Shown one piece after another: positions 2,572-18,682 of a stretch of 22,629 nt of DNA. Position numbers and translations under genes: made by a program. The stretch lies in the IMG/VR virus record IMGVR_UViG_3300048508_000227, positions 1-22,629 of that record; one strand, 5' to 3'. The notes under the pieces were generated by a model. The model had not been told where the DNA came from. It searched no databases and was given only the letters and a program-made list of their open reading frames with translations. The first letter of the stretch is position 1, and each line of letters begins with the position of its first letter. Source of the DNA: a virus.

Positions 2572-4380
2572 ATGGCTGCTATTATATCTGATAAGTTTAG
2601 AATTTTTAATGCGAAGCAATTCCTGGAATCGCTATCGGAAACTCCTAGTACGAACATGTACTTTTTCGTTGGTCGTCCACAACCATGGAAGGCGTACTTA
2701 GAAGTATATTCAAAGTCTTCAACTAATTTTACTGTCGGAAATGAAGTGTTTGTTGGAACATATGGTTCCACTGCTTTCCGTGCTACTGTTTCTGCTGTTT
2801 ATGATGGTGCCCTTCTTCTGACCGACGTTTTTGGTAGTAACGGTATTAATTCTGTTCCACCAACTGGCAGCACTTTATTAGAAACTGCAGATGGCGGTTC
2901 TAATACAACATTAGCTACAGCAACTACTGGTGTTTATCGCTACGGTACTGAGGACATTCCACCTCTTCCTCTCGACAACCAAAGAGAGAAAATGTCTCTC
3001 TATGATGAAATTATCGCTGCCAAACGTATTACAACCGATCTAGCAAGAACGGTTATTCGTCGTTACAACTGGGACGTTGTTGCGAACCCATTCTTTGATA
3101 TGTGGAAACCTGATTACTCTGCTACTCCAGCAGGTGGAGGTCAAGTTGGTAAGCAAACTGCAACTAATGTTTCTGCAATTGCAGATGCTAAGTTCTATGT
3201 AATGAATACAAACTATGAAGTATTCAAATGTCTATACAACGGTCAGTCTCCTGCAAATCCAAATGGCGTAAATGCATCTGAAGAACCATCTACTTCTGGT
3301 GGTAACTATAATTCATCTACAGGCATCTACACAGAGACCACCGGAGGTCTTTATATTTGGAAGTACGTATATACTATTCCAACTGATGATGTTCTTAAAT
3401 TCTTGTCTTCGGACTTTATGCCTATTGTATTGGCATCAGAATCTACTCGTCAAGCAGTAGAAGCTCTTGTAGTTGATGGATCACTTGATGTTGCTGTTAT
3501 TGAAGATGCAGGATCAAACTTTACAGACGGAACTGTTTATACTAGTGTTAAAGGTGACGGAACTGGTGGTGTTGTAGAACTAACAATTAGTGGCGGTGCA
3601 ATTACTGCTGCTAGCGTCTGGTCTCGTGGATCAGGTTATAGTTATGCTAATGTCCTCCTAGGAAATGGCAACCTCTTCTCTGATAGTGCATTAACATCTG
3701 CAGTTGCAACTCCCGCTAATGCCACTGGTGCTATTGAAATAGTTCTTCCCCCACAAGGCGGTCACGGTTCCGATATGGAGCTAGAACTCAATGGTAAGCG
3801 TGTAATGACTAACATTCGCCTTACATATGCAGAAGGTTCTGGTGACTTCCCTGTCGATAATGACTTCCGTCGCATTGGTATTATTAAAGATCCTCTTCTA
3901 ACTGCTACAAATGCTGCTGCAACAGAATCTACTTATTCTGGTCTAAAAGCAATTAAAGTTAATCTCAATGGTGGATCTGGAGATTATGTTCCAGACGAAA
4001 GAATCACTCAGACTGTAACTGGTGGTACTGCATATGGAACCGTAGTTTCTTGGGTTCTTGATAGTGGTTCGACTACTTCGGGTGTTCTTAAGTATATTCA
4101 AACTAATGACGCACATACCGATCAAGGTATTGTAAGAGATTTTGAGAGCAATGGTTCTAACGCAGTTTCAGGAGGTCAGTCTTCTGCTGCTGGTGTAGTT
4201 GACACTGCTTACAATACTGGCGGTGCAGTTCTTCCATTACTAGGTCATACGTTTACTTCTGGTCTCTCTCCCTCAGAGATTAAGAACAATTCTGGTGATG
4301 TAATCTATGTAGAGAACCGTCGTCTAATTACTCGTGCTCCCGACCAGATTGAAGATATCAAACTAGTCATCGAATTCTGA
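2572..4380 (+). CDS. 8: Baseplate wedge protein gp8 (enlarged)
   Basis: This is the baseplate wedge subunit gp8, which in T4 is a dimer in each of the six wedges. It is 602 residues against 334 in T4. Conserved blocks, compared with T4 gp8 from memory, run in order: ISDKFR at the N-terminus; VGRPQPW near residue 34; a helical block from LYDEI (144) to RRYNWD; NYEVFKCLY (214); LYIWKYVYTIP (about 260); FRRIGIIKDPL (432); and SGDVIYVENRR (574) with DQIEDIKLVIEF at the C-terminus. The extra length falls into three insertions, at about 40-143, 285-430 and 445-570, made of Gly/Thr-rich beta modules. They include a GxGY module (3583-3665) and two 'GE/DE.I' modules. The start is well placed: CGGA lies 8 bases upstream and the N-terminus matches the family. 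Arginine codons are mainly CGT/CGC (15 of 20), unlike the AGA-rich neighbours. It has its own late promoter and a terminator follows. Confidence 0.93.
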   Translation: MAAIISDKFRIFNAKQFLESLSETPSTNMYFFVGRPQPWKAYLEVYSKSSTNFTVGNEVFVGTYGSTAFRATVSAVYDGALLLTDVFGSNGINSVPPTGSTLLETADGGSNTTLATATTGVYRYGTEDIPPLPLDNQREKMSLYDEIIAAKRITTDLARTVIRRYNWDVVANPFFDMWKPDYSATPAGGGQVGKQTATNVSAIADAKFYVMNTNYEVFKCLYNGQSPANPNGVNASEEPSTSGGNYNSSTGIYTETTGGLYIWKYVYTIPTDDVLKFLSSDFMPIVLASESTRQAVEALVVDGSLDVAVIEDAGSNFTDGTVYTSVKGDGTGGVVELTISGGAITAASVWSRGSGYSYANVLLGNGNLFSDSALTSAVATPANATGAIEIVLPPQGGHGSDMELELNGKRVMTNIRLTYAEGSGDFPVDNDFRRIGIIKDPLLTATNAAATESTYSGLKAIKVNLNGGSGDYVPDERITQTVTGGTAYGTVVSWVLDSGSTTSGVLKYIQTNDAHTDQGIVRDFESNGSNAVSGGQSSAAGVVDTAYNTGGAVLPLLGHTFTSGLSPSEIKNNSGDVIYVENRRLITRAPDQIEDIKLVIEF

Positions 4381-4477: not shown

Positions 4478-7400
4478 ATGCCACAGCAGACTAACTTAAA
4501 CGTTTCTCCTTATTACGAGGACTTTGACGCAAGCAAGAATTTTTATAAGATTCTCTTCCGTCCTGGGTATTCCATTCAGGGAAGAGAACTAACACAACTC
4601 CAATCGATTCTTCAAAGTCAAGTTGAATCGTTTGGTAAGTTTGCCTTTAAACAGGGAGATTTAGTAATTCCTGGAGAAGTAGGTCTTAATACAAAATTAG
4701 ACTATGTAAAGCTATCTTCTGTATCAGAAGTTGCTGTTAATGAAGACAATAATATCGTATATAAAAAATATGATATTACTCAATTAGTAGGTCAAACATT
4801 ACGAGGTCTTTCTTCTGGTGTTGACGCTATAGTTTTGTCCACAAAGTTGTCTACAGAATCTTCTGCTGATACTGTATTTGTCAATTATATTAACAGTGGT
4901 AACTCCAGCACAGAACTCTCATTCAGACAGGGAGAAACATTAGAAGTAGTTGATGGTGTTAATACACCATTATTGGTTGTAGGAACTGACGGAAGTGTTC
5001 TACCAACTAGCATCAATGTAACTAATCCTGATACTGGGGAAGTAACTTCACTAGAAAGTCCCGCAATGGGATATGGTTCTGCTATTAAAGTAGAAGAAGG
5101 AATTTACTTCATAAATGGATTTTTTGTTCGCAACAAAGAAGAACTTTTAGTAATTGAAGAGTATTACGATAAGCCAACTGCTAAAGTTGGATTTACAATT
5201 ACAGAAAAAATTGTAACACCCGAAGAAGATTCTTCTTTATATGATAATGCAATTGGATCATCTAACTATACTGCTCCTGGTGCAAATAGACTTAAAATTG
5301 AATTAAACTTAAAAGAATTTGAAATTGATGCAATTGCAGATAAAAATTTCATACAACTTATTACTGTTGTAAAAGGAGCAGTACAAAGAAGAGTAAAACC
5401 AACAGATTATAATTTACTAGAGCAAACTCTAGCAAGAAGAACTTTTGATGAGAGTGGAGATTATGTAGTTGACAACTTCTCTGTTGATGTTAGAGAATAC
5501 GCACAGAGAGATGGTAATAGAGGACTCTATGCAATTTCAGATGATGGATCATTTAACGGATTGAATGCTGGCGATGCATATCGCAAAATGATTGCTAGTG
5601 TAGGTCCTGGTAAAGCGTACATTAAAGGATATGAGATTGTCAATAAAGAAACTAAGTACTTAGAAATTAATAAAGCTAGAGAAAATCTTGCAAGTGATAA
5701 TGTAACTTTAAAGAGTAGAGGACTACCATCACTGAATATTACTAATGTGTATGGCAGTGTTCCTTTAAACAAGGAAGGATCTGATTTAACAGCATACCCA
5801 GAAGTATTTGTATATTCTACTTTTAATGATGGTTCTATCGGTTTAAACAATACTGAAGATAGCACTAGCTTAAAACAGACAGTTAGTAGAAGAGGATTAA
5901 TATTTGATTCTAATATTGGTATTAAAACTTTAACAATCGAAATTTCTAGTACCACAAATACTTTATCTACTATTACCGATAGTACGTTCCAAACTACATT
6001 TAAAGATTTACATTTTATTAGAACCAGAGACGCCCAAGGAGCAGTTGTATCTACAAGTAGTGTACAAACATTATCATACTCAATAATTAATCGTCCAGAA
6101 ATTAATAGTTCATCAGGAGTTCAGTTTTTTGAAGTAACAGTATTTGGTGACAAAAGTGAAGTAGAACTTCTCCTAACTGACTATGATGCAGGGGACAGTA
6201 GTTACAGAAGACAACTATATCTTTCTGTATCTGATCTATCTAATGATGTCAAATTTGGAACTATTGTTGATTACGGAGAAACATTTACTCCTGTTATTGG
6301 TAAAGTAAAACCAAATAACTTTTATCTAGAATCTAGAGGTGCTGGATTTGATGATGATTCGGATATTGTTATTTCAAAAGGACGTTTGCCTCAAGGAACT
6401 AGTTCCTATAATACTATTTTTGGATTGTCATATTTTGATCCACAATTTTTTACAAAACTTCTTCTAAATTCAACTCCACCAGATGGATCTTTTAGTGAAG
6501 GCAAATACGTTTATGGTCTGGATAGTGGCGCATATGGGGTTGTGGAAGGTGAATCTAATGGTACATATTCTACATCCAACATTTTGTTTGTCAAGACTAT
6601 TTCAGGTAAATTTATAAGTGGAGAAACACTCAGAGACGAAGATCGTAATTCTGTAAAAATTGCAAAAGATAATACTATCTCCCATTTTATTGTAAGAAAT
6701 AGGGGAATTGGTTATAGTCAAAGTTCAAAACTTTTAATTAATGGTGTTGAATACGACGGATCAAAAATTAACTTAGAATTTACTGCTATAGGAAATGTAC
6801 TAAGAGCAGGAATCAACGACAGATCTGCTGTTTCTATTGAATATAGTCAACCACCTGCTGTATCTGTTATACAACCAGCTGGTTCTGGATCCCCATCAGA
6901 AATTGCAAATGTTGTACCAATTCTATTTAAAAATAGTGTAACTACATACACTCCACAAAATATTAAGTCTGTTGGTTGTAGGTATGGATCTGGAAATGCA
7001 AACACATTTTCTGCAGATATAGTTATTGATAGTCAACAATATTCCGAAATTAAATCTGTAACAGATTTTACGTTTTTTGGAACAAAGGGAACTCTTTTCT
7101 TAGAATCCACAAGTTTCAGTGCAGATGCAAGTGAATTCTTAATTCAAGGAGATATTATTCAATTTTCCGATGAAGATAATAACGTAGTTCGCACAATCGT
7201 ACAAAAATCTACAAAACAAGAAGGTTCGGTAAAAACTAGAATTTATCTAGATTCTGCTCTACCAGGAAATGTTTCTAACACTAGTGTTGTTCGTCTTCGT
7301 CCTAAAACAGTAAACCCAAATTCTGGAACATTACTTTACCCAACTGGTAGCAGGCAAGTTAAAAAAATCTCTGCTGGAGGCGATGAAACAAAAATTAAAT

Positions 7401-10400
7401 ATTATTTCAGAAGAGATTTTGTTACTACAGCTTCTTCTGGTGGTGGCAAGATTACTTTTGCGGCACAACTTCCATTTGGTACACAAAGATTTACAGCATT
7501 TTCAGAAAGAAACTATATTATTACTGTATTAAATCCGGGTGATGCGCCAGATATTGAAACGGGTGATATCATTTATGTTGATCCAGATAATGTAAACATT
7601 AGTTCTGCTACTGATACTGCAAGTGGTCTAACTTCAGGTAGTATTAGTTTAGATCTTCCATCAACTTATTTTGGAAACATTCCATCAAATGGAACTTTCC
7701 CTAAGTTAAAATTGACTTCTACTCTTGAAGTAACAAATGCTAAACCAAGACTCAAAACTTCTGTAGAAAATAAGAGAATTGTAGTTTCTTCTTCTGGGGA
7801 TAGAGTTATTCCATTCAGAGGAACTGATTATGATAGTGAAGTTGTTGAAAGTTTATCTTATTCTGATGCTTATAGATTGAGATATGTTTATGAAGGAACT
7901 ATCTCAAAAGCACCTGATGTAGATACTGCCGGTAATTTGATCACAGGTAAAGACGTTACTGAAAGATTTACTTTTGATGACGGACAGAGAGATACGTTAT
8001 ATGACGTATCTAGAATTGTTTTAAAACCAGGATTTGAAAATACTTCGGGGCAATTAGTAATCGCATTTGATTATTTCGAGCATTCTCAAGGAGATTTTTG
8101 TACCATTGATAGTTACCTCCATGAAGCAGGTGTTGTTGAAGATCTAATTCCAGATTTTAATTCTAACGTTCATGGAATTATTGAGTTAAAAAATGTTATT
8201 GATTTTAGACCAAAAGTAGATAGCAATACTATTATTCCTGGATATCAAGATACTTCTTCCCTATCAGAGGCAACTAGTCAGTTTGCTGGTCCTGGATCAG
8301 TAATTACAAGTTCTCCTGCTCCGGATTCAAATCTGGAATTCACTATCTCATTTAGTCAGGTTCAATATCTCAGTAGAATTGATGGCATCTTCTTAAATAA
8401 GACTGGAGAATTTATTATCAAGGAAGGTAATTCATCTCTCAATCCAACAAAACCAGATCCTGTAGATGATGCAATTGCGCTTTTCTATGCTTATGTACCT
8501 GCATACACACAAAGCAGCAAAGATGTAAGAATTACGCCCGTAGATAATCGCCGTTATACAATGCGCGATATCGGTAAACTAGAAAAACGTATTCAACGCC
8601 TTGAGTATTATACCACTCTTAGTATTCTAGAGCAACAAGCTCTCAATATGCAGGTTAAAGATTCTATCGGATTAGACAGATTTAAAAGTGGTTTCTTAGT
8701 AGATAATTTTGAGGAGCATAGAGTTGGTAATCTAAAATCTATTGATTACGTTTGCTCTATCGATAGTCAACAATCTGTATTGAGACCACAATCAAATGAA
8801 GATTCATTTGCTTTGATGGAAGTTAATACTAGAGAAGATCAAAGGTCTGTTGCTGGATATCAAAAATCTGGAAATATTATTACTTTACCTTATTCTGAGT
8901 TAAATTTAATTTCAAATTCTTCTGCTTCTAAGACTTTAAATCCAAATCCTTTTGTTGTTATTCAATATGTTGGAGACGGTGAGATTTCTCCATCTATCGA
9001 TCAGTGGTATGACAAAAGTGTAGAACCTCTTATTGTTGACACTAATACAAGTTTATATTCTATTTTCTTAGCAAAGGAAAACACCAAAGAAAGTTATTCG
9101 AGTTTACACAATTCATTCTTAATTAACTGGGTTGGAACATCACCATCGTTTGTTGCTATCAACTCCTTAGGAGAATCTTCTACAAAAAATGCAGTTTCAT
9201 CTGTTGGATCAGCATCTGTGGGAAGTTCCTCAAACATTAGTCCTCAAAATAATGAAATTGGAAAAGGTATTGTAAGCAACAATATTGGTGAAAGATTAGT
9301 TTCTTCTTCTATACAATTTTATGCTAGAAGCATTCCTGTAAAATTTGTTATCAAAAGACTAAAACCAAATACAACTGTTAACGTCTTCATGGAAGGCAGA
9401 AATATTAACAGGTGGGTAAATCCAGATTTAAGATTTACTGGAATGGCAGGTAACTCACTATCCACATTTGGTGGGGTTGTGGTAACTGATGAAAGCGGAT
9501 CTGCTAGTGGTATTATTTTAGTGCCAGCAGGGGCACCCCCAACAGAAAACACTACTTGGACTGGGGATATCAATACCGTAAGCTATGATGCATCAGGAGA
9601 AGAAATTAGAATTGCTACTGGTGTAAAAACTATTAGATTTACTTCTAGTGCTACTGATGAAAGTAAAGAAAAAGTTGCTTCTTATGCAGAAGTAAAATAT
9701 TATGCTACCGGTATTTTACCACAAAATCCATCTAGTATTGTTTCAACAAAACCATCTTACTTCAAATCCAACGAAGGAGTTCAATCTGTTAATAGCAATA
9801 CAGACAATCCATTAAAACCAAATCCTGTAGCTCAGATTATCAAGATTGAAAATTATGACGGTGGAGTGTTTGTCACTGGTTTAGATCTATTCTTTAGTAA
9901 AAAGAGTGATACTATTCCACTGAGAGTTTATTTGACTAATATCGATTCAGACAAACCAGCAAAAAATATTCTTCCCGGAACAGAAAAAACTCTTTCACCG
10001 AATACTTACCTAAGATGTTATACAAATGGTAATGTTTCTGTAACTAAAGGAGAATTTATAACGGGAGTGTCAACTGCTGCCTCTGGTCCTATTTCCAAAA
10101 TCATTGATAAGAACGGTGTAGAGTTAACACCATCTACTACTGGAATCTTTGCATTAACAAACGATCAAGTATATACAATTGTGCTTGACAATCATAATGG
10201 TAAATCTTTTAGACCCAATGAAGATTTATCTATTCCTTCAGTTACTAATGCAAATGCAACTGGTGGAACAGATTTAAAATTAACGATTGCTAAAGATAGT
10301 GGAAAGATTTCAGATATCAAAATTGTCAATACAGGTCAAAATTACGACAGTGCAATTTTGACAATTGAAAGCCCACAACTTCCTGGAGGATCATCTGCTA

Positions 10401-12574
10401 CTGCTCGTGTGGAAGTTTCTGATGGTAAAATTTACAATGCAGAAATTTCTTTAAGTGGTATTGGATATACAGAACCGCCTTCAGTAGTCATCAGAGGTGT
10501 CGGAAATGGGGCAGGAGGTTGTGTAATCCAAACCTTAATAGAAATTGACACACCTGCAGTCAGAATGGGCGTAGCGGTCGATAGAGATGGAGTTACAAAC
10601 TCCACGACACCAACTAAGTTTAAATTTGACTATCCAGTATACTTACAGAATGATACAGAATATGCTTTAGTTGTAGAGACAGATTCAACCGATTATGAAT
10701 TATGGGTTTCGGAACTTGGATCTAGTGATATTTCCACAAGTAGTATCATTACATCACAACCATCTTTAGGTTCTCTATACAAATCACAAAATACTGATAT
10801 TTGGACGGAAGATTTAGATCTAGATTTGAAATTCAATCTCTATAGAGCAGAGTTTGATATTAGTAGACCATGTGATCTTTTACTTACGAATAAAAATTTA
10901 GGATATGAATTACTAGACAAAAATCCTATAGAGACAAATGCTGGATCTGATACAAATGCTACATCAACTTTATATAAGAGTAATAATAGCATTGTAAAAG
11001 TATCCCATAGAAATCATGGGTTTGATAGTTCAGAAAAATCTTATGTTTTCTATAAAGGAGCTTTAGAAACGGGAGGAATTACTGCCGATATTATTAACAC
11101 TAATCTTTTTAAAGTTACAAACATAGGTATCGATCAGTACAATTTAACTTCAACAAACCAAGCATCTGGCAATAGTGTTGGTGGTGGCGATAGTGTTTAT
11201 GCAATTTTCAACAGAAAATATGAAACTCTTTATCCACAAATTAATTACCTCACATTTAGTGATACTAAACTAGAAAGTTTCGTATCAACTACTAATGCTG
11301 TTCCTGTAGACTCTTCAACTACAAATTATACATCATATTCTCAGACAGAATATGAAAAAACTTTCTTAAATGAATCGCATTTCTTTACAAATCAAAAATT
11401 AATTGCTTCTCGTATTAATGAGACTTTGAATAACTTGGAAAGATCTCTTACATATAAGATGTCTCTAAGTTCCACAAAATCAACTTTATCACCTGTAATT
11501 GATTTATCAAGTGCTTCTGTGAAAACAGTAACTAATAGAATTGAAAATGCAAAAGGAAAAGAAGACAGATTTGGTTCTAGAAATCAAATCATCAAATTCT
11601 TTGACGTTTATACTTTCCAATTAACAGGACAAGCTGGAATTGGTATTACTGAAAATCAGACAATTAAGGGTGCTACTTCAAAGGCAGCAGGAACTATCGC
11701 AAGAGTTGATGGAAGCACTGTTGTTGTCAGAGTAAAAACAAAACAAACTTTTACTGCTGGAGAATTGGTTGCTTTTGCAGAGCAAACATCATTAACTTCT
11801 GTTACTGTTGATGGAGCTCCATCAAAGGTAAATCTTTCTATCGAAGATGGTGCAACTATCACTGCAAGAAATCCAAGTAATATTACTGGAGATACTTACG
11901 ACAATATTATTTTTGGTAAAACTGTTTCTTGGAATAACCAAACTGAAATATTAACTTTAAAGAATGACAATAGACCAATCGTAGATGATTATACTGGAAG
12001 AATTCAGGATAATCCAGAAGCATTTAATAGAAATGCAGTTATTGGAGATCAAGGTCGCGACATTTTTAGAGTTGGAGATTTTATCAGTTATGCAGATCAA
12101 TCAGATACACAAGCTGCATACTGGGAAATTGGATCAGTCACATATTCAAATGGAACTGAATTTGTTGCTGAAGACACCTCCAAAAATAGTTCTTCCGTTG
12201 CAAAATATATAACTAAAGAAATTTCAATTTCAAATCCAGGAACTTCAATTGACGTTCATCTTTTAATGAATGCTAAAGAAATTTCTGATATTGAAGTTCT
12301 TTATAAGTTCAAAAAAGCATCCAGTCAAGATAACTTTGATGATATTGATTGGGAATACTTTAATGGAAACGGTCAACCTGATGTTGCAGAAATTGCAACT
12401 CCAGAAAATACTATTTCTAGTGCTGTCGAGAAACAATCATCTTACCAAGATTTAAAGTATAGTGTATCCAACTTACCTGAATTTTCTACTTTTGCAATCA
12501 AAATTGTTATGAAAAGTGTAGACCCAGCATTTGTGCCAAAAATTCAGGATATTCGTGCTGTAGCATCATTCTAA
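4478..12574 (+). CDS. Giant DUF4815-type virion structural protein
   Basis: This 2698-residue protein begins with the N-terminus I associate with DUF4815 phage proteins: NLNVSPYYEDFD, then FRPGYSIQGRELTQLQSIL (residues 1-50), then an 'IPG' strand. Other blocks recalled from cyanophage homologues are GYEIVNKE (about 385), FDDGQRDTLYDVSR (about 1168), VIDFRPKVD (about 1240), a coiled coil starting RRYTMRDIGKLEKRI (1360-1400), IPVKFVIKRLKPNT (about 1612), GLDLFFSKKSDTIPLRVYL (about 1800), YPVYLQNDTEYALVV (about 2055) and a C-terminal part with AKYITKEISISNP. The coiled coil suggests an oligomeric fibre or baseplate-attached component. Extra beta modules are spliced between these blocks: 'GE..I.G' modules at about 4787-4970, 6490-6645, 10036-10110 and 11650-11790, and GxGY modules at 6679-6930 and 10294-10560. 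The biochemical role is unknown. It sits where T4 has genes 9 and 10 but I see no direct T4 match. Confidence 0.85.
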   Translation: MPQQTNLNVSPYYEDFDASKNFYKILFRPGYSIQGRELTQLQSILQSQVESFGKFAFKQGDLVIPGEVGLNTKLDYVKLSSVSEVAVNEDNNIVYKKYDITQLVGQTLRGLSSGVDAIVLSTKLSTESSADTVFVNYINSGNSSTELSFRQGETLEVVDGVNTPLLVVGTDGSVLPTSINVTNPDTGEVTSLESPAMGYGSAIKVEEGIYFINGFFVRNKEELLVIEEYYDKPTAKVGFTITEKIVTPEEDSSLYDNAIGSSNYTAPGANRLKIELNLKEFEIDAIADKNFIQLITVVKGAVQRRVKPTDYNLLEQTLARRTFDESGDYVVDNFSVDVREYAQRDGNRGLYAISDDGSFNGLNAGDAYRKMIASVGPGKAYIKGYEIVNKETKYLEINKARENLASDNVTLKSRGLPSLNITNVYGSVPLNKEGSDLTAYPEVFVYSTFNDGSIGLNNTEDSTSLKQTVSRRGLIFDSNIGIKTLTIEISSTTNTLSTITDSTFQTTFKDLHFIRTRDAQGAVVSTSSVQTLSYSIINRPEINSSSGVQFFEVTVFGDKSEVELLLTDYDAGDSSYRRQLYLSVSDLSNDVKFGTIVDYGETFTPVIGKVKPNNFYLESRGAGFDDDSDIVISKGRLPQGTSSYNTIFGLSYFDPQFFTKLLLNSTPPDGSFSEGKYVYGLDSGAYGVVEGESNGTYSTSNILFVKTISGKFISGETLRDEDRNSVKIAKDNTISHFIVRNRGIGYSQSSKLLINGVEYDGSKINLEFTAIGNVLRAGINDRSAVSIEYSQPPAVSVIQPAGSGSPSEIANVVPILFKNSVTTYTPQNIKSVGCRYGSGNANTFSADIVIDSQQYSEIKSVTDFTFFGTKGTLFLESTSFSADASEFLIQGDIIQFSDEDNNVVRTIVQKSTKQEGSVKTRIYLDSALPGNVSNTSVVRLRPKTVNPNSGTLLYPTGSRQVKKISAGGDETKIKYYFRRDFVTTASSGGGKITFAAQLPFGTQRFTAFSERNYIITVLNPGDAPDIETGDIIYVDPDNVNISSATDTASGLTSGSISLDLPSTYFGNIPSNGTFPKLKLTSTLEVTNAKPRLKTSVENKRIVVSSSGDRVIPFRGTDYDSEVVESLSYSDAYRLRYVYEGTISKAPDVDTAGNLITGKDVTERFTFDDGQRDTLYDVSRIVLKPGFENTSGQLVIAFDYFEHSQGDFCTIDSYLHEAGVVEDLIPDFNSNVHGIIELKNVIDFRPKVDSNTIIPGYQDTSSLSEATSQFAGPGSVITSSPAPDSNLEFTISFSQVQYLSRIDGIFLNKTGEFIIKEGNSSLNPTKPDPVDDAIALFYAYVPAYTQSSKDVRITPVDNRRYTMRDIGKLEKRIQRLEYYTTLSILEQQALNMQVKDSIGLDRFKSGFLVDNFEEHRVGNLKSIDYVCSIDSQQSVLRPQSNEDSFALMEVNTREDQRSVAGYQKSGNIITLPYSELNLISNSSASKTLNPNPFVVIQYVGDGEISPSIDQWYDKSVEPLIVDTNTSLYSIFLAKENTKESYSSLHNSFLINWVGTSPSFVAINSLGESSTKNAVSSVGSASVGSSSNISPQNNEIGKGIVSNNIGERLVSSSIQFYARSIPVKFVIKRLKPNTTVNVFMEGRNINRWVNPDLRFTGMAGNSLSTFGGVVVTDESGSASGIILVPAGAPPTENTTWTGDINTVSYDASGEEIRIATGVKTIRFTSSATDESKEKVASYAEVKYYATGILPQNPSSIVSTKPSYFKSNEGVQSVNSNTDNPLKPNPVAQIIKIENYDGGVFVTGLDLFFSKKSDTIPLRVYLTNIDSDKPAKNILPGTEKTLSPNTYLRCYTNGNVSVTKGEFITGVSTAASGPISKIIDKNGVELTPSTTGIFALTNDQVYTIVLDNHNGKSFRPNEDLSIPSVTNANATGGTDLKLTIAKDSGKISDIKIVNTGQNYDSAILTIESPQLPGGSSATARVEVSDGKIYNAEISLSGIGYTEPPSVVIRGVGNGAGGCVIQTLIEIDTPAVRMGVAVDRDGVTNSTTPTKFKFDYPVYLQNDTEYALVVETDSTDYELWVSELGSSDISTSSIITSQPSLGSLYKSQNTDIWTEDLDLDLKFNLYRAEFDISRPCDLLLTNKNLGYELLDKNPIETNAGSDTNATSTLYKSNNSIVKVSHRNHGFDSSEKSYVFYKGALETGGITADIINTNLFKVTNIGIDQYNLTSTNQASGNSVGGGDSVYAIFNRKYETLYPQINYLTFSDTKLESFVSTTNAVPVDSSTTNYTSYSQTEYEKTFLNESHFFTNQKLIASRINETLNNLERSLTYKMSLSSTKSTLSPVIDLSSASVKTVTNRIENAKGKEDRFGSRNQIIKFFDVYTFQLTGQAGIGITENQTIKGATSKAAGTIARVDGSTVVVRVKTKQTFTAGELVAFAEQTSLTSVTVDGAPSKVNLSIEDGATITARNPSNITGDTYDNIIFGKTVSWNNQTEILTLKNDNRPIVDDYTGRIQDNPEAFNRNAVIGDQGRDIFRVGDFISYADQSDTQAAYWEIGSVTYSNGTEFVAEDTSKNSSSVAKYITKEISISNPGTSIDVHLLMNAKEISDIEVLYKFKKASSQDNFDDIDWEYFNGNGQPDVAEIATPENTISSAVEKQSSYQDLKYSVSNLPEFSTFAIKIVMKSVDPAFVPKIQDIRAVASF
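8554..8670 (+). other. Conserved coiled-coil segment in the DUF4815 protein
   Basis: The translation RRYTMRDIGKLEKRI continues as QRLEYYTTLSILEQQALNMQ. Hydrophobic residues at heptad-like spacing (M, I, L, I, L, Y, L, I, L) are mixed with charged residues. It is the only clear long helix in an otherwise beta-rich chain and likely mediates oligomerisation. Confidence 0.6.
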
Positions 12575-12583
12575 TTTCCGCGT

Positions 12584-12790
12584 ATGTCTTATATTAAAGT
12601 TTCCGGGCATGATGGTCTTGTCAGAGACGAGACCACAGGTGCCATCTTGAATCACGATGATTCTGCTATACAAGCAAGACGTAAACAAAGACAGTTAAAT
12701 TCCGCGTTGGACGACATAAATATGTTGAAGAATGAAATCTCGGAAATTAAATTCCTACTTAGAGAGTTAGCAAAAAATGTCAGCAGTTAA
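12584..12790 (+). CDS. Small coiled-coil structural-cluster protein
   Basis: This is a 68-residue protein starting 9 bases after the DUF4815 gene. The N-terminal half, MSYIKVSGHDGLVRDETTGA, matches small proteins I recall at this place in marine T4-like phages ('GH..LVRD..TGAI'). The C-terminal half (about residues 30-65) is a predicted coiled coil with L/I/M at heptad positions (LNSALDDINMLKNEISEIKF). No function is established. Its place between two giant virion proteins, and the 14-base overlap with the next gene in a different frame, point to coupled translation. A role as adaptor, assembly chaperone or small virion part is inference only. No strong Shine-Dalgarno sequence is visible, so ribosomes may arrive from the upstream gene. 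Confidence 0.82.
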   Translation: MSYIKVSGHDGLVRDETTGAILNHDDSAIQARRKQRQLNSALDDINMLKNEISEIKFLLRELAKNVSS

Positions 12791-15700
12791 TGTAGCACGT
12801 ACTGATACCTTTGAACAACAGAGGGTCAAAATTAATACGATTAGTACAGCATTATTTAATGTCACTTCTGGTGGTTCTGATCTATCTACTGGCAATTTAA
12901 AATTGGGGGATGGAACACTAGGTGCTCCATCTCTAGCATTTGTAAACGAAGACAATTTAGGTATTTACCGACCAGCAATTTCCACTTTTGGATTTGCTGC
13001 AGGTGGAAAAAAGATTACCGATATTGGACTGTCTAGTATCACATCTTTTCAAAATATTATTGTTCAACAGAAAAAACTTCTTCAAAGTGGAATAAGTATC
13101 CAATCTGTTGGGTCGAATTACGATACAGGAAGTTATACTGATATTGCTATTGTAGGTGGTAGCGGACAATTTGGTACTCTTGATATTGAAGTAACTGCTT
13201 GGAATGGAGCAGTTACGAATCTCGGTAGTCAATACTACAATGGCAGTTTCACATCAGTTCCTTTACTTGGTGGTAATGGCAATGGTGCTACAGCAAACTT
13301 TGAAGTAGACCCAATTGATGGTACTATTGATGATGGCGGTACTGCATATAAACCAGGAACTTATACTGGTGTTCCTCTAACTGGTGGTAACGGATCCGGA
13401 GCAGAAGCAACTGTTGATATCCAGGGCGGAGCATCTCTTAGTGGTACTATTACTCAGGGTGGTACTGGTTATGTTGATGGAAACTATGCATTCGTTCAGT
13501 TATTCAATACTCCAACACAAACTTTTGTAGTTACTGCGATTGCCAATCCAAATGCTGGTAATCCTGGTGAACCAAATTACATTTATGCAATTGATGGAAA
13601 TACCCAACCATCATTGACAATGGTTGAAGGTAACACATATCGTTTTGATATGTCTGATACTAGCTTAGATCCTTCTAATGGTGCAGATGCTGGTGCTAAT
13701 CATAGAATGACATTTCAGATGGCAGATGGATCTTCGCCTGATGTAAATGAATATGAATTTTTTGTTAAGGGTGCTATAGGAACTACTGGTGCATTCCAAG
13801 ATTTAATTGTAAAACCTGGAGCTACAACTGGCACCAATGCTATCAGATATGACTGTGCCAATCATCAGAATATGGCACCTGCGGGTGGAAACATTACAGT
13901 CAATACTGGTGCTGCAGGAAGTCATGGTGTTAGTGCATATGCTGATATTACTATTAGCGGTCAGGCAGTAACAAATATTGTATTCATTGCAGATGGTAGT
14001 GGTTATAAATCAGGTGATGTATTACAAATTTCAAATCTTGATGTTGGCAATGCTGGATCTGGATTTGAATTTACAGCATCTGGAATTGTATTAACAGGTG
14101 TTGTAACAACTGTTACTATTACACAAAGTGGAACAGGATATCAAACTAACGATGTCCTAGGTATAAATGATTCGGATGTTGGATCTGGCGGTACTGGTTC
14201 TGGATTCCAATATACTATAACATCTCAACCAGGGATAATTAAGAATTTTGCTCCAGCACAAAAAGGCACTGGATATCAAGTAGGAGATGTCCTTTCTTTA
14301 GGTCAAGGTGTTACTAACATCTCTGCATATGCTCCAGGACAGTCTATTTCTTATGCCACCACACTCTCTATTAGTAGCGCATCGTTTACAATTTCTGACA
14401 CTTCTGCGTTGCAAGTTGGCATGTATGCTGCTTCTAGTGCAGGAGATACAGGATCTCTTGATCCAGTATCAACTATTCAGAGCATTGATAGTGCAACACA
14501 AGTTACTTTGGATATTGTACCGTTAGGTGGTGGTACAGCAAACATTGTATTTACAACTCAAAATTTATTCCAAGTTACTGTTCCAGACACCACTGGAATG
14601 AATATTGACGATATCGTCGAAAAAGTTTCTGGTGCAGGTATACTCGATTCAGGAACAACAGTTGCTAATGTTGATGATGCTACGACTATTACACTATCAT
14701 CTCAACCAACCACCGCTGGTCCTATTGTACTGAGTGTTCTTCCTCCATATGGAAATCCAGCAGATGACTTTGAATATACAATCAATAGTCTTGGTGCTAT
14801 CGATACTATAACAATCAATGGATCTGGTAATGGATATGCTATCGATGATATACTAAGTGTTTCTCCATCAGATTTAACACAACCACTAACTATACTAGTA
14901 ACAGCAAAATACGTACAAACTGTATCATTTACTCAAACTATCGCTTCTGGATGGGTTTCTGCCGGAGATAGCATCAAGGAAGTTGATGGAGTAGCTACTG
15001 GAGTAACTGCAGTCACTACTCCAGATAAAGCACCAGATGTAACTGGTCCACTTACTGCTACATTGAATAGTGGAAGTGCTGTTGTAACTCTATCGTCAAC
15101 AACTGGAATTAATATTGGCGACATTATTTCAGAAAACGCTAGTGGTAATATTCCTGTTGATCCAACAGTTGTGAGCGTTGATAGCGCGACACAAATTACA
15201 ATGAGTGCTCCTGCATTACAGACAGCAACTCCAAGTCTATCATTTACATCAGATGAAGCAGCGACATATTCTGATTTAGCAACAACAGGTGGCACTGGTA
15301 GCGGATGCACTGTAGATGTAACTAGAAATAGTCTGGGACAAGTAACACAAGTTGTAGTAAATCAAGGTGGTGTAGGATATACTGCTGGAGAAACTTTAAC
15401 GGTATCTGGTACTTTAACTGGTGGAACTTCTCCAACACATGATATTACAGTAGATGTTGCTGGTGCAACTAGCAGCACTCCAGGTGAAGTAATTTCTGTA
15501 ACAGAATCTGGTGGTAATATTACATCGATTTTGGTAGAAACAGACCAGGGTTCTCCTTATGCTAGCGCACAATCAATTATAAAATCTGGAACAACAAGTC
15601 CAATATACACAATTGATACTGCTTCATCAACTAGTGTCAGGTTCTATATTGATCCAGATGGCAATGGCGCACAACTAACACCAAACTTAACTCTATACGC

Positions 15701-18179
15701 AGGATCTACATACAGGTTTGATTTATCAGATCAATCTTTATCTGGAACACAGTTTAATGTTAGTACATTTGCTGATGGTTTTAACTCACCATCCCGCGTA
15801 GCAGCAGTATCGACATCTTTAGATAATACTTCTAGAGTTATTACAGTTGCGAGCACGGCAGGAATTGCTGTGGGAATGATTCTAACTAAAGATAGTGGAG
15901 ATGGTGAGTTAGAATCTGATACCAGAGTAGAAAGTGTTGATAGTTCTACACAGATTACCTTAACACAGATTCCAACAACTTCTGGTGCTACTGTAGTAAC
16001 ATTTGCTGGCGCTCCATATACAGATGGTGTGACAACTGGAGCCGGATTCCTTGATTTAAAAATTACTAATAGTACACCGTCACTATATTACTTTGATAAT
16101 GGGTTATTTCAGAATGCTGGCGGCGCAGATGGAAATGAAGCAGTAATTACTATAGATCCAAATAACCCAAAAGTATTTGGATCTGGATTCCAATTGAGAG
16201 TTGTCGCAATTCAAGAATCTGATGTTATCACCAGTAATGTATTGGATGGAACATTATCAGCTGTTAAAGTTGTTGCAACTACTGGTGAAATTGACTCAAT
16301 TATTGGAACAGACATTAGTGTTTCCACTACCGAATCTAGTGTCAGTGTTACAACTCCACTTGTAACAAATAGTACAACAGGACCATTAACTTTAACTGGA
16401 ACATCTATTGATACTACAAATAATTTTACAGTTGGGTTATTTTCAGTAGATCATGCAACTGGAGATGTTCTCACATCAGGAGAACTACAAGCATTAACTA
16501 GGTTAAATGTCAACAACAAATTGTTTATTACCGATAATGTAATTTCAACTGATGCATCTTCCGACTTAATATTAACTGCTCCCACAGGAAGAGTAACACA
16601 AGTTACTGGATTTGGAGCACTTACTATTCCTTCTGGTAATACAACTCAGCGTCCGAGTGCTGCAACTAATGGATCTATTCGATTTAATACTCAAACAAAT
16701 CAGTACGAAGGTTATAGTGCAGGAACATCATCATGGTCTTCTCTTGGTGGTGTAAGAGACCTAGATGGCAATACTTATATCTTAGCAGAAAAAACTGTAG
16801 GTGCCAATGATAACACACTGTGGTTCTACAATGATGATGTAAATACGATTAAAGTAACACCATCATATTTTGAGCTTGCAAGTGTTAAGAAAATTAGATC
16901 TCTTAACACAACAGCTCCTGCATTTACCGAATGGTCTGCAAATACTCCGGTACTAGTTGGTGACTACATCAAATACAAAAATAACTTATATGAAGTAACA
17001 ACTAGTGGCGGTAGCGCAGGCGATCCTGGTGGTACAACTGCTTCTTCTGGAAATGAACCAACACACACCTCCGGTGTAGCACCAAATGGTACAACAGAAC
17101 TTACTTGGTCTCAATTAGCAGTTGATTCAATTACATTTGAAGATGTATCCGAAATTCGTGTCGGTCCCCAATCAGAACTTTCTTTATCGATTAATAATGA
17201 TCTCCGGTTTGCAAATAATGTTATCTCTAGTGACATTAGCGATCTTCTAATCCGTCCAAACTCCGGTAAAAAAATTATTTGCGATTCTGCAACTTCTTTG
17301 GTTGTTCCTGCTGGAGCAGATGCTGATAGAGGAGTTGCAATCCAAGGTTCTGTCAGATTTAGTTCCACATCATCTCAGTTTGAAGGTTATGACGGAGCAA
17401 ACTGGGGATCTTTAGGAGGTGTTAAAGATGTAGATCAGAATACTTATATTATTCCAGAAACTTCTCCCGGTGCCAATGAAAATACTTTATATTTTTACAA
17501 TGACGGCGCTAAAACTTTAGAAGTAACTACAACAGCTTTAGATTTCTATGGTATTGATACTATTAGATCGGTAACTTCAGATGAATTAGAAATTACCGCC
17601 TCACTATTAACTTTTGATTCTGGAACTTCTACATTTGATAACACACAAGCAGATAGAACTTTCTTACATACAACTAAGCAGTATTTCGACTTAGGTCTTT
17701 CTGCTGGTTTAACTACAGATCCTGTACTAAGACTAGACGACCAGGGAGATGTATTCCTTAACGTTGGATTCGGATCAGGTAATCTTGATCTAGTCAAAAT
17801 TTTTGATGGAGACCTAAAAGAGTTTGAACTTGCTGATGTAAGAGTGTTATCAGAAAAATTATCTCTTGTGAAAGGAACTACAAACAATGGAAGTTCTGAG
17901 TTGTATCCAGTTGCCAGTAATGTAGGTTGCAAAACAACTGTTATCGCTCACAACACTGTAACTCAAGACAAAGAATTCTTTGAATTTGGTGTACTAGATG
18001 ATGGTACAAATATATTCCACACAACTTATGGAAATATTAGAACAGGTATTCAACTAATCATTCCAACATTTGAAGTTACTGGAACTGGTGCCGCTAGACT
18101 AAATATTGAATTAGGTGCTGATGTCAATGCGACTGATACTGTGACTATTACAATTGTGTCAAACGTTACTAAGAAATAA
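12777..18179 (+). CDS. Modular tail-fibre-like protein with cupredoxin-like domains
   Basis: This 1800-residue protein starts with a block typical of cyanophage fibre proteins: RTDTFEQQRVKINTIS, SGGSDLSTGNLKLGDGT and LGIYRPAISTFGF (residues 8-75). Then follow GxxY/GGNGxGA repeats (105-240), a cupredoxin-like domain with candidate copper ligands (268-380), 'GTGY..DVL' repeats (385-525), two 65-residue 'VDSATQIT' modules (527-658), a third (759-825), a GGVGY module (840-905), a second cupredoxin-like domain with a fourth 65-residue module nested in it (943-1122), a fibre shaft-like stretch, two copies of a 'FEGY..WGSLGGV' repeat (about 1275-1372 and 1498-1595) with a binding-type module between (1386-1445), and a separate C-terminal domain from about 1700. 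No signal peptide or membrane segment is visible. The start overlaps the small gene's end. An in-frame TAG at 12768 limits any earlier start. Host-receptor or particle-surface binding is plausible but not shown. Confidence 0.85.
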   Translation: MSAVNVARTDTFEQQRVKINTISTALFNVTSGGSDLSTGNLKLGDGTLGAPSLAFVNEDNLGIYRPAISTFGFAAGGKKITDIGLSSITSFQNIIVQQKKLLQSGISIQSVGSNYDTGSYTDIAIVGGSGQFGTLDIEVTAWNGAVTNLGSQYYNGSFTSVPLLGGNGNGATANFEVDPIDGTIDDGGTAYKPGTYTGVPLTGGNGSGAEATVDIQGGASLSGTITQGGTGYVDGNYAFVQLFNTPTQTFVVTAIANPNAGNPGEPNYIYAIDGNTQPSLTMVEGNTYRFDMSDTSLDPSNGADAGANHRMTFQMADGSSPDVNEYEFFVKGAIGTTGAFQDLIVKPGATTGTNAIRYDCANHQNMAPAGGNITVNTGAAGSHGVSAYADITISGQAVTNIVFIADGSGYKSGDVLQISNLDVGNAGSGFEFTASGIVLTGVVTTVTITQSGTGYQTNDVLGINDSDVGSGGTGSGFQYTITSQPGIIKNFAPAQKGTGYQVGDVLSLGQGVTNISAYAPGQSISYATTLSISSASFTISDTSALQVGMYAASSAGDTGSLDPVSTIQSIDSATQVTLDIVPLGGGTANIVFTTQNLFQVTVPDTTGMNIDDIVEKVSGAGILDSGTTVANVDDATTITLSSQPTTAGPIVLSVLPPYGNPADDFEYTINSLGAIDTITINGSGNGYAIDDILSVSPSDLTQPLTILVTAKYVQTVSFTQTIASGWVSAGDSIKEVDGVATGVTAVTTPDKAPDVTGPLTATLNSGSAVVTLSSTTGINIGDIISENASGNIPVDPTVVSVDSATQITMSAPALQTATPSLSFTSDEAATYSDLATTGGTGSGCTVDVTRNSLGQVTQVVVNQGGVGYTAGETLTVSGTLTGGTSPTHDITVDVAGATSSTPGEVISVTESGGNITSILVETDQGSPYASAQSIIKSGTTSPIYTIDTASSTSVRFYIDPDGNGAQLTPNLTLYAGSTYRFDLSDQSLSGTQFNVSTFADGFNSPSRVAAVSTSLDNTSRVITVASTAGIAVGMILTKDSGDGELESDTRVESVDSSTQITLTQIPTTSGATVVTFAGAPYTDGVTTGAGFLDLKITNSTPSLYYFDNGLFQNAGGADGNEAVITIDPNNPKVFGSGFQLRVVAIQESDVITSNVLDGTLSAVKVVATTGEIDSIIGTDISVSTTESSVSVTTPLVTNSTTGPLTLTGTSIDTTNNFTVGLFSVDHATGDVLTSGELQALTRLNVNNKLFITDNVISTDASSDLILTAPTGRVTQVTGFGALTIPSGNTTQRPSAATNGSIRFNTQTNQYEGYSAGTSSWSSLGGVRDLDGNTYILAEKTVGANDNTLWFYNDDVNTIKVTPSYFELASVKKIRSLNTTAPAFTEWSANTPVLVGDYIKYKNNLYEVTTSGGSAGDPGGTTASSGNEPTHTSGVAPNGTTELTWSQLAVDSITFEDVSEIRVGPQSELSLSINNDLRFANNVISSDISDLLIRPNSGKKIICDSATSLVVPAGADADRGVAIQGSVRFSSTSSQFEGYDGANWGSLGGVKDVDQNTYIIPETSPGANENTLYFYNDGAKTLEVTTTALDFYGIDTIRSVTSDELEITASLLTFDSGTSTFDNTQADRTFLHTTKQYFDLGLSAGLTTDPVLRLDDQGDVFLNVGFGSGNLDLVKIFDGDLKEFELADVRVLSEKLSLVKGTTNNGSSELYPVASNVGCKTTVIAHNTVTQDKEFFEFGVLDDGTNIFHTTYGNIRTGIQLIIPTFEVTGTGAARLNIELGADVNATDTVTITIVSNVTKK
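13089..13515 (+). repeat. Tandem G..Y/GGNG.GA protein repeats
   Basis: Three full copies and one partial copy of a roughly 40-residue unit are visible: SNYDTGSYTDIAIVGGSG, SQYYNGSFTSVPLLGGNGNG, TAYKPGTYTGVPLTGGNGSG and then GTGYVDGNYAFVQL. Each has an aromatic pair around a Gly, a strand ending V/I-P/A-L/I, and a Gly-rich turn. The copies have diverged, so this is ancient protein-level repetition and not a DNA satellite. Confidence 0.75.
13578..13917 (+). other. Cupredoxin-like domain with full candidate Cu ligand set
   Basis: Within the 1800-residue protein this segment reads YIYAIDG, a strand ending GNTYRFDMSD, NHRMTFQMADG, GAFQDLIV, then IRYDCANHQNM and GNITV. This follows the strand order of small blue copper proteins. 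Candidate ligands are His309 (codon 13701), Cys360 (13854), His363 (13863) and Met366 (13872). The C-x2-H-x2-M spacing matches that of amicyanin, as known for that family. Similar domains occur in other marine phage proteins as I recall. Copper binding itself is inference. Confidence 0.65.
14355..14556 (+). repeat. 65-residue 'VDSATQIT' module, copy 1
   Basis: The key parts are FTISDTSALQVGMYA, then IQSIDSATQVTLD and a closing IVFTT strand. It is the first of four related modules in this protein (14355, 14562, 15051, 15798). Confidence 0.75.
14562..14750 (+). repeat. 65-residue 'VDSATQIT' module, copy 2
   Basis: The key parts are VTVPDTTGMNIDDIVEK, SGTTVANVDDATTITLSS and a closing IVLSV strand. 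It follows copy 1 almost directly and is the most diverged at the VDDATTIT core. Confidence 0.7.
15051..15250 (+). repeat. 65-residue 'VDSATQIT' module, copy 3
   Basis: The key parts are VVTLSSTTGINIGDIIS, DPTVVSVDSATQITMS and a closing LSFTS strand. It is very like copies 1 and 4 in layout. Confidence 0.75.
15603..16145 (+). other. Second cupredoxin-like domain, ligands lost, with nested module
   Basis: The segment has YTIDTA, a strand with GSTYRFDLSDQSLSGTQF, then NVSTFADG, an interruption, then TTGAGFLDLKI, LYYFDNGLFQNA and EAVITI. This parallels the domain at 13578-13917 strand by strand, but the His, Cys and Met ligand positions are not kept. The interruption (about 15798-16004) is a full 65-residue 'VDSATQIT' module lying between the FADG strand and the GAGF strand. 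Confidence 0.6.
15798..16010 (+). repeat. 65-residue 'VDSATQIT' module, copy 4 (nested)
   Basis: The key parts are RVITVASTAGIAVGMIL, TRVESVDSSTQITLTQ and a closing VVTFAG strand. Unlike the other three copies it lies inside another domain, the second cupredoxin-like one. Confidence 0.7.
16600..16890 (+). repeat. 'EGY..W.SLGGV' fibre repeat, copy 1
   Basis: The protein pattern is LTIPSGNTTQRPS, GSIRFNTQTNQYEGY, SSLGGVRDLDGNTYI, GANDNTLWFYNDD and IKVTPSYF. The same order recurs at 17270-17560. The 'RP...G.IRFN..T..FEGY' motif is common in phage fibre and whisker-like proteins. Confidence 0.75.
16920..17115 (+). other. Binding-type 'N.YEV..GG' module
   Basis: The translation has W(S)ANTPVLVGDYIKYKNNLYEV, Gly/Thr-rich turns, EPTHTSGVAPNG and TWSQLA. 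The layout (Trp, Gly-Asp, aromatic-Asn-Leu-Tyr, PTHTSG, Gly-Thr, Trp) resembles small carbohydrate-binding modules seen in phage tails. A sister copy occurs in the last gene near 19300-19460. Confidence 0.5.
17270..17560 (+). repeat. 'EGY..W.SLGGV' fibre repeat, copy 2
   Basis: The pattern is SLVVPAGADADRG, GSVRFSSTSSQFEGYDG, WGSLGGVKDVDQNTYI, GANENTLYFYNDG and LEVTTTALDF. It repeats the unit at 16600-16890 about 670 bases downstream, and the binding-type module sits between the two. Confidence 0.75.
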
Positions 18180-18181
18180 AA

Positions 18182-18682
18182 ATGGCAACAACAATCGAAA
18201 AATTTGATTCTACTGGTGGATTTTCTATTGATAGAACTACTGTTGTAGATGAATCAAGAAATGCAAAAGATCTCAATACTATTGAATTAAAAAATAGTAA
18301 TTACACAGATAGTAGAACCACTAACTACATCTTAAGAGGTCTTAATACATCTACATTAGACTTAGATGGTCTGGGAACACAAATTCCAATCTTAAATAAT
18401 ACAATCAATTTTATTACAGGTCACATTGTTGCTGTTAATGATACAGGAACCGTATATACAGTAAAATTTGAGTCTTCAGTTATTTGCAATGGTGTTGGAA
18501 ATACCACCGTTCAGTCTACTTTTCAAACAGTAATTAAAGATGATATTCCAAGTGGAGAAACATGGTTTGTTCAACCAGTTGGGGCATTGAATAGATTTAG
18601 TTATACTACTACTAGAGCAGGAACAACAGCGACAATTAAATGGATCGCCAAAACAGAAGTAGTAAGTATTGATTGGGCTTGA
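18182..18682 (+). CDS. Small virion-cluster protein of unknown function
   Basis: This is a 166-residue protein whose ATG follows the previous stop after two bases, so translation is probably coupled. It is rich in Thr and Asn, appears all-beta, and has no signal or membrane segment. Landmarks are MATTIEKFDSTGGFSIDRTT, SRTTNYILRGLNTSTLDLDG (residues 41-60) and the C-terminal RFSYTTTRAGTTATIKW block, which I recall from equivalents in marine T4-like phages. No enzymatic motif is visible. Given its place directly after a long fibre-like gene, a fibre tip, cap, chaperone or small structural partner is possible. None of these is supported by sequence alone. No terminator follows. Confidence 0.8.
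   Translation: MATTIEKFDSTGGFSIDRTTVVDESRNAKDLNTIELKNSNYTDSRTTNYILRGLNTSTLDLDGLGTQIPILNNTINFITGHIVAVNDTGTVYTVKFESSVICNGVGNTTVQSTFQTVIKDDIPSGETWFVQPVGALNRFSYTTTRAGTTATIKWIAKTEVVSIDWA

Follow-up and report, generated by a model that had tools for sequence, protein, structure and literature searches.

The window, by which we mean the whole stretch of 22,629 nt analysed here, is a 22.6-kb IMG/VR virus fragment carrying the baseplate/tail gene module of a marine phage of the T4-like type (Table 1), and it shares its gene order with the cultured Synechococcus phage S-MbCM7 (the baseplate wedge initiator gp7, T4-GC_112, T4-GC_350, T4-GC_512 and gp14) and with phage Syn1. Separated from the 2698-aa DUF4815 protein by a 68-aa ORF, the central 1800-aa protein matches the PHROG 6005 profile with an E-value of 0 and 1798 bits, most strongly over residues 824-1800. 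It is syntenic with S-MbCM7_081 (T4-GC_350) and Syn1_099 (T4-GC_1069), and the Syn1 protein at the equivalent position is annotated as a virion structural protein. Searches of the 1800-aa chain, which has four Cys and nine His in all, gave no match to PF07880 (T4 gp9/10) and no export signal or signal peptide. The sequence-only reading of this locus had spoken of a phage fibre-like protein; the gene order shared with virion and baseplate genes of cyanophages supports the assignment to a virion tail protein, for which we prefer "baseplate/tail-associated virion protein" to "fibre".

Table 1. Coordinates of genes, domain copies and putative ligand residues in the window
Feature	Position	Strand	Basis
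gp8-like baseplate wedge protein	2572..4380	+	PF09215
2698-aa DUF4815 protein, in the place of the cyanophage "gp7 / virulence associated" baseplate protein	4478..12574	+	synteny
1800-aa virion structural protein bearing both domain copies	12777..18179	+	PHROG 6005; synteny
Domain copy 1, residues 247-381 (~135 residues), cupredoxin-like beta-sandwich with full putative ligand quartet	13515..13919	+	AF2, Foldseek, profile E 2e-54
His309, putative N-terminal copper ligand, directly ahead of a strand	13701..13703	+	
Cys360, putative thiolate ligand, end of model strand 111-119	13854..13856	+	
His363, putative ligand, loop following the Cys strand	13863..13865	+	
Met366, putative axial ligand	13872..13874	+	
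Domain copy 2, about residues 941-1128, all ligands lost, small inserted beta-domain at about 15810-16010	15597..16160	+	profile E 3.6e-9; alignments
166-aa virion structural protein, position and size as T4-GC_512	18182..18682	+	phrog_5449
Tail-fibre-type protein, start only, runs off the contig end	18727..22629	+	phrog_5342

The first of the two domain copies had been placed at 13578-13917, which is the right location with limits that are too narrow, the domain being somewhat longer with its first strand starting near 13515. Residues N308-H309 (codon 13701), C360 (13854), H363 (13863) and M366 (13872-13874) all lie at the codons previously assigned to them, and the C-x2-H-x2-M motif, 51 residues past H309, occurs once in the 1800-aa protein against 1.1e-4 occurrences expected from composition. 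The amicyanin-like spacing attributed to this motif is correct, the ligand loop of amicyanin being C92, H95 and M98. A Tyr-rich strand ahead of the Cys, also part of the earlier description, is pronounced in the relatives (LYYYC) and weak in the window itself (IRYDC). Variants of copy 1 in the loci L027-L053 (e.g. L028:6001-6300) have a loop longer by one residue, C-x2-H-x3-M (CSTHGRVM, CTQHGQSM).

An AlphaFold2 model of copy 1, for which the input was an alignment of 102 sequences drawn solely from the window and fetched viral loci (A2), is a nine-strand beta-sandwich with a mean pLDDT of 87.9 and a pTM of 0.84. In this model H309 is located just before the strand 70-74, C360 at the end of its strand, and H363 and M366 in the loop preceding the last strand; plastocyanin and amicyanin display the same cupredoxin placement of ligands relative to strands. 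Foldseek searches against the PDB returned, in the first nine places, eight rusticyanin entries (E 8e-4, probability 0.98) and a domain of the Hyphomicrobium copper nitrite reductase (probability 1.00, TMq 0.50), with amicyanin, other nitrite reductases and multicopper oxidases in lower places, mixed with some unrelated proteins. The TM-scores to solved cupredoxins are modest, mostly 0.35-0.50, and hence support the cupredoxin fold class short of proof at the atomic level. The domain combines a Greek-key beta-sandwich of about eight strands (nine in the model, with the modest TM-scores just given) with a His and a Cys-xn-His-xm-Met arrangement in which the Cys ends a late strand and the His and Met occupy the next loop, and by fold and ligand set its resemblance to the type 1 copper cupredoxins is supported, a class whose blue copper proteins serve photosynthesis and respiration. 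The predicted fold also matched entries in BFVD described as "Beta-sandwich proteins" of Pithovirus LCPAC / Marseillevirus LCMAC (A0A481Z6J5, A0A481Z7Q7, A0A481YVH3), which, going by the model, are possibly cupredoxin-like proteins of giant viruses.

With the window domain as query, sequence searches of Pfam, NCBIfam and the PDB yielded no cupredoxin and no match above threshold. The PF00127 (Copper-bind) model, with a cut-off of 21.2 bits, did not match in the window and reached 15.7 bits for the best relative. Profile searches started from A2 recovered sub-threshold matches headed by plastocyanins and aligned at the Cys-His loop, those from A1 gave noise only, and those from A4 gave antibody chains; in an hhalign comparison of the profile with one phage plastocyanin the probability was 5%, the C/H loop nonetheless being aligned. 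On these results homology to cupredoxins is unproven by sequence alone, and the domain belongs to an unnamed family that is covered by neither a Pfam nor an NCBIfam model. Three more specific identities were considered and rejected: membership of the plastocyanin/azurin family (PF00127) by score, amicyanin by context, as the domain lies inside an 1800-aa virion protein lacking a signal peptide, and the phage plastocyanin PetE by the presence of a separate PetE in Syn9, S-SM1 and Syn1.

We then considered the conservation of the putative ligands. The only invariant columns in A2 are H309, Y358, C360 and H363, M366 is present in at least 90% of the 102 sequences, and the quartet is conserved across 21-88% identity. 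As many rows of A2 were found or filtered through the C-H-M motif, we compared sets chosen by other criteria, and these agree. Among 107 domains picked by an N-terminal motif alone, 92 have the two halves of the site and 15 lack them both (14, together with L030, in which what looks like a half-site is a His outside the ligand positions); the halves are about 50 residues apart, yet they are retained or lost jointly. Conversely, of 76 loci picked up with the C-terminal motif YYYCxxHxGMGG alone, 74 have the upstream HP, and ten further cyanophage gp9 C-terminal domains, taken down the record ranking, all possess HPF and C-x2-H-x2-M. The proposed check of the four residues in homologues has come out positive in A2 and in the sets chosen by other criteria alike, and the sequence-only reading of a cupredoxin-like domain with all type 1 ligands gains support from the AlphaFold2 fold, the Foldseek matches, this conservation and the all-or-none loss of ligands.

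The same pattern bears on the possibility that copy 1 is a purely structural beta-sandwich, in which a captured cupredoxin fold acts as a spacer or adhesion domain and the residual ligands no longer hold a metal. Copy 2 speaks for this possibility by retaining the strand pattern without any ligand, implying that the fold can do without metal, as do ligand-free copies in Syn9 and S-SM1; the S-SM1 protein concerned (S-SM1_102, T4-GC969) was found in purified virions (PMC3037559). In copy 1, however, the four residues rank with the best-conserved positions down to 21% identity and are either all retained or all lost, which counts against a structural relic because drift would leave half-sites, and we regard this explanation as unlikely. 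The earlier suggestion of a relic of a captured fold does not fit copy 1 but does suit the ligand-free copy 2, which the sequence-only reading had not included.

Copy 2 itself displays the same signature as copy 1 (AGSTYRFDLSD ... SLYYF). Its AlphaFold2 model has a pLDDT of 74 with the first 35 residues poorly modelled, and a fold search with this model, including that poorly modelled N-terminal part, gave no match at E <= 0.001. Its relatives, 79 distinct sequences gathered without any ligand requirement, comprise 60 with the first His and C-xn-H-x2-[E/M], 16 with none of these and three with the first His alone; the C/H pair without the first His was seen in 0 of 79. On their tree there are 5-6 changes of ligand state, one pair of them on well-supported branches, and with so few events a sign test falls short of significance. 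Even so, the two site halves behave as a single unit, as a shared metal would impose. The axial place, occupied by Met in copy 1, is taken by Glu in 51 of the 60 ligand-bearing copy 2 domains (C-x5/6-H-x2-E), a variant that to our knowledge is found in no characterised cupredoxin. A few copy 2 domains have C-x2-H-x2-M or C-x6-H-x2-M, and insertion-split examples occur in L015, L018, L059, L078 and L093, among other loci.

Across 50,697 phage records the domain was detected in 358, at 699 places. The carrier phages infect Synechococcus, Prochlorococcus, Pelagibacter or Methylophilales, or are labelled marine, two records being uninformative by name, and the carrier proteins include gp7, gp9, tail fibres (also those of pelagiphages) and other virion proteins. 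In cyanophage gp9, the connector between baseplate wedge and tail fibre, the domain forms the C-terminus, and in Syn9, S-SM1 and one pelagiphage the carrier protein has a PF07880 N-terminus. Adjoining gp9, S-SM1_104 (L369:15618-19778) combines a single domain of this kind with a second, degenerate one and with a YHYH domain (PF14240, function unknown). A scan of 84,980 species (A4) recovered 50 loci from cellular genomes, nearly all in records whose names mark them as marine MAGs or single cells; many of these look like phage genes, and some are clearly cellular. An example of the latter is a SAR86 protein of 161-167 aa with a lipoprotein signal, a Gly linker and mainly this domain, flanked by metabolic genes. 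We describe an unnamed marine domain family that occurs in phage virion proteins, cell-surface lipoproteins and large proteins of marine bacteria.

Several carrier types from the cellular genomes deserve mention in their own right. Small lipoprotein-type carriers were seen in marine genomes of SAR86 (L268:4803-5288, L258, L274), in L250 and L251, and in L257, a MAG labelled Euryarchaeota; a poly-Gly linker is found in the SAR86 versions, a cadherin domain in L251 and a collagen-like repeat in L257. A recurrent type of mostly 220-280 aa (MARFASGRKTYGISDRSGFRYRL...), some members of which have a CDRCGF motif, is present in L233, L234, L236, L242, L265 and L266 and is probably a protein of phages that was binned with marine MAGs. 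Single-cell contigs titled Prochlorococcus (L271, L273, L275, L276, L278, L279) encode the domain with intact C-H-M, two of the proteins exceeding 2000 aa.

Based on the sequence, the conservation, the all-or-none loss of ligands, the predicted fold and the genomic context, we propose that copy 1 is probably a cupredoxin-like module with an intact putative type 1 copper site carried by a virion protein associated with the baseplate of a T4-like marine phage, most likely binding one copper and serving as a metal-locked, host-facing surface module. Copper as the metal, the time of its loading and a role in host contact are what we infer beyond these data. The putative H309/C360/H363/M366 site would take up a single copper ion, most likely upon lysis or later, given that assembly of the virion takes place inside the host, in a cytoplasm poor in copper; the absence of an export signal on the 1800-aa protein, together with the scarcity of copper in the cytoplasm, counts against this proposal. 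Once loaded, the domain would form a metal-locked module on the surface of the particle's host-facing end, with a role in host contact or in the rigidity of the host-facing apparatus as the simplest guess. As copy 2 suggests that the fold can exist without the site, keeping the fold together is probably not the metal's only task.

A site for a different metal, such as zinc, iron or nickel, is conceivable in light of the iron-binding HxH motifs reported for phage tail fibres, including those of T4 (PMC11705849), and of the ability of Cys/His sites to accept zinc. We consider it quite improbable: copper is favoured by the precise C-x2-H-x2-M loop, by the match to a cupredoxin-type fold and by the soft Met ligand that has been retained, and copy 1 contains no HxH motif. 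Electron transfer is what type 1 sites are tuned for; this, together with the lipoprotein nature of some cellular relatives, might point to a redox-active virion site that transfers electrons or senses redox state by reacting with the host surface or with periplasmic electron carriers. Such a role seems very unlikely, given that the window contains neither a partner nor a further redox centre and that the domain is found in phages of very different hosts.

If the putative copper site of copy 1 does bind copper, a blue copper protein would sit where baseplate and tail fibre join in most marine T4-like cyanophages, a group that ranks with the most common of known viruses, and would make metalloprotein particles of them; many virus particles in the ocean may then contain copper. 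Copper would also become a factor whose influence on the adsorption of phages and on their stability at sea can be tested, the unnamed domain in hundreds of "hypothetical" or "structural" genes would receive a name, and natural ligand-free and Glu-axial variants would be supplied for bioinorganic work.

Compared with known systems, the window domain shares with amicyanin the C-x2-H-x2-M loop, the N-terminal His ahead of a strand and a cupredoxin fold match, whereas their sequence similarity is not above threshold and amicyanin is a small secreted electron carrier with methylamine dehydrogenase as partner, genes for which are absent from the window, rather than part of an 1800-aa virion protein. 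Rusticyanin and the Hyphomicrobium nitrite reductase cupredoxin domain are the best PDB matches by Foldseek, yet identity is about 14-19% with modest TM-scores, and the ligand loop of rusticyanin is longer. Cyanophage plastocyanin (petE, PF00127) is likewise a blue copper protein from the same kind of phages, but it is a metabolic gene used inside the host, has a C-x2-H-x4-M loop and is detectable with PF00127, whereas the window domain lies among virion genes and has no PF00127 match. The likeness to T4 gp9/gp10 (PF07880) consists in the cyanophage and pelagiphage gp9 proteins, in which the PF07880 N-terminus is followed by this domain; the PDB matches of the Syn9 protein to T4 gp9 and gp10 are restricted to that N-terminus. 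A literature search, mostly of papers outside subscription, found no description of a cupredoxin domain in phage virions, and the closest idea is that of iron in tail fibres (PMC11705849). The HxH tail fibres of T4 gp37 and Alteromonas phage R22Y, to which the Ferrojan horse hypothesis relates, similarly place a metal on the host-facing part of the virion (PMC11705849), but as iron sites of fibre trimers in another fold and protein, as opposed to a putative cupredoxin site within one chain. More tentatively, and with considerable doubt, we suggest that this class of marine phages might present natural type 1 copper sites on baseplate/tail proteins, along with an axial-carboxylate variant in the copy 2 relatives, that would be filled from seawater after lysis and aid recognition of, or locking onto, the host surface, as a copper counterpart of the iron tail fibres.
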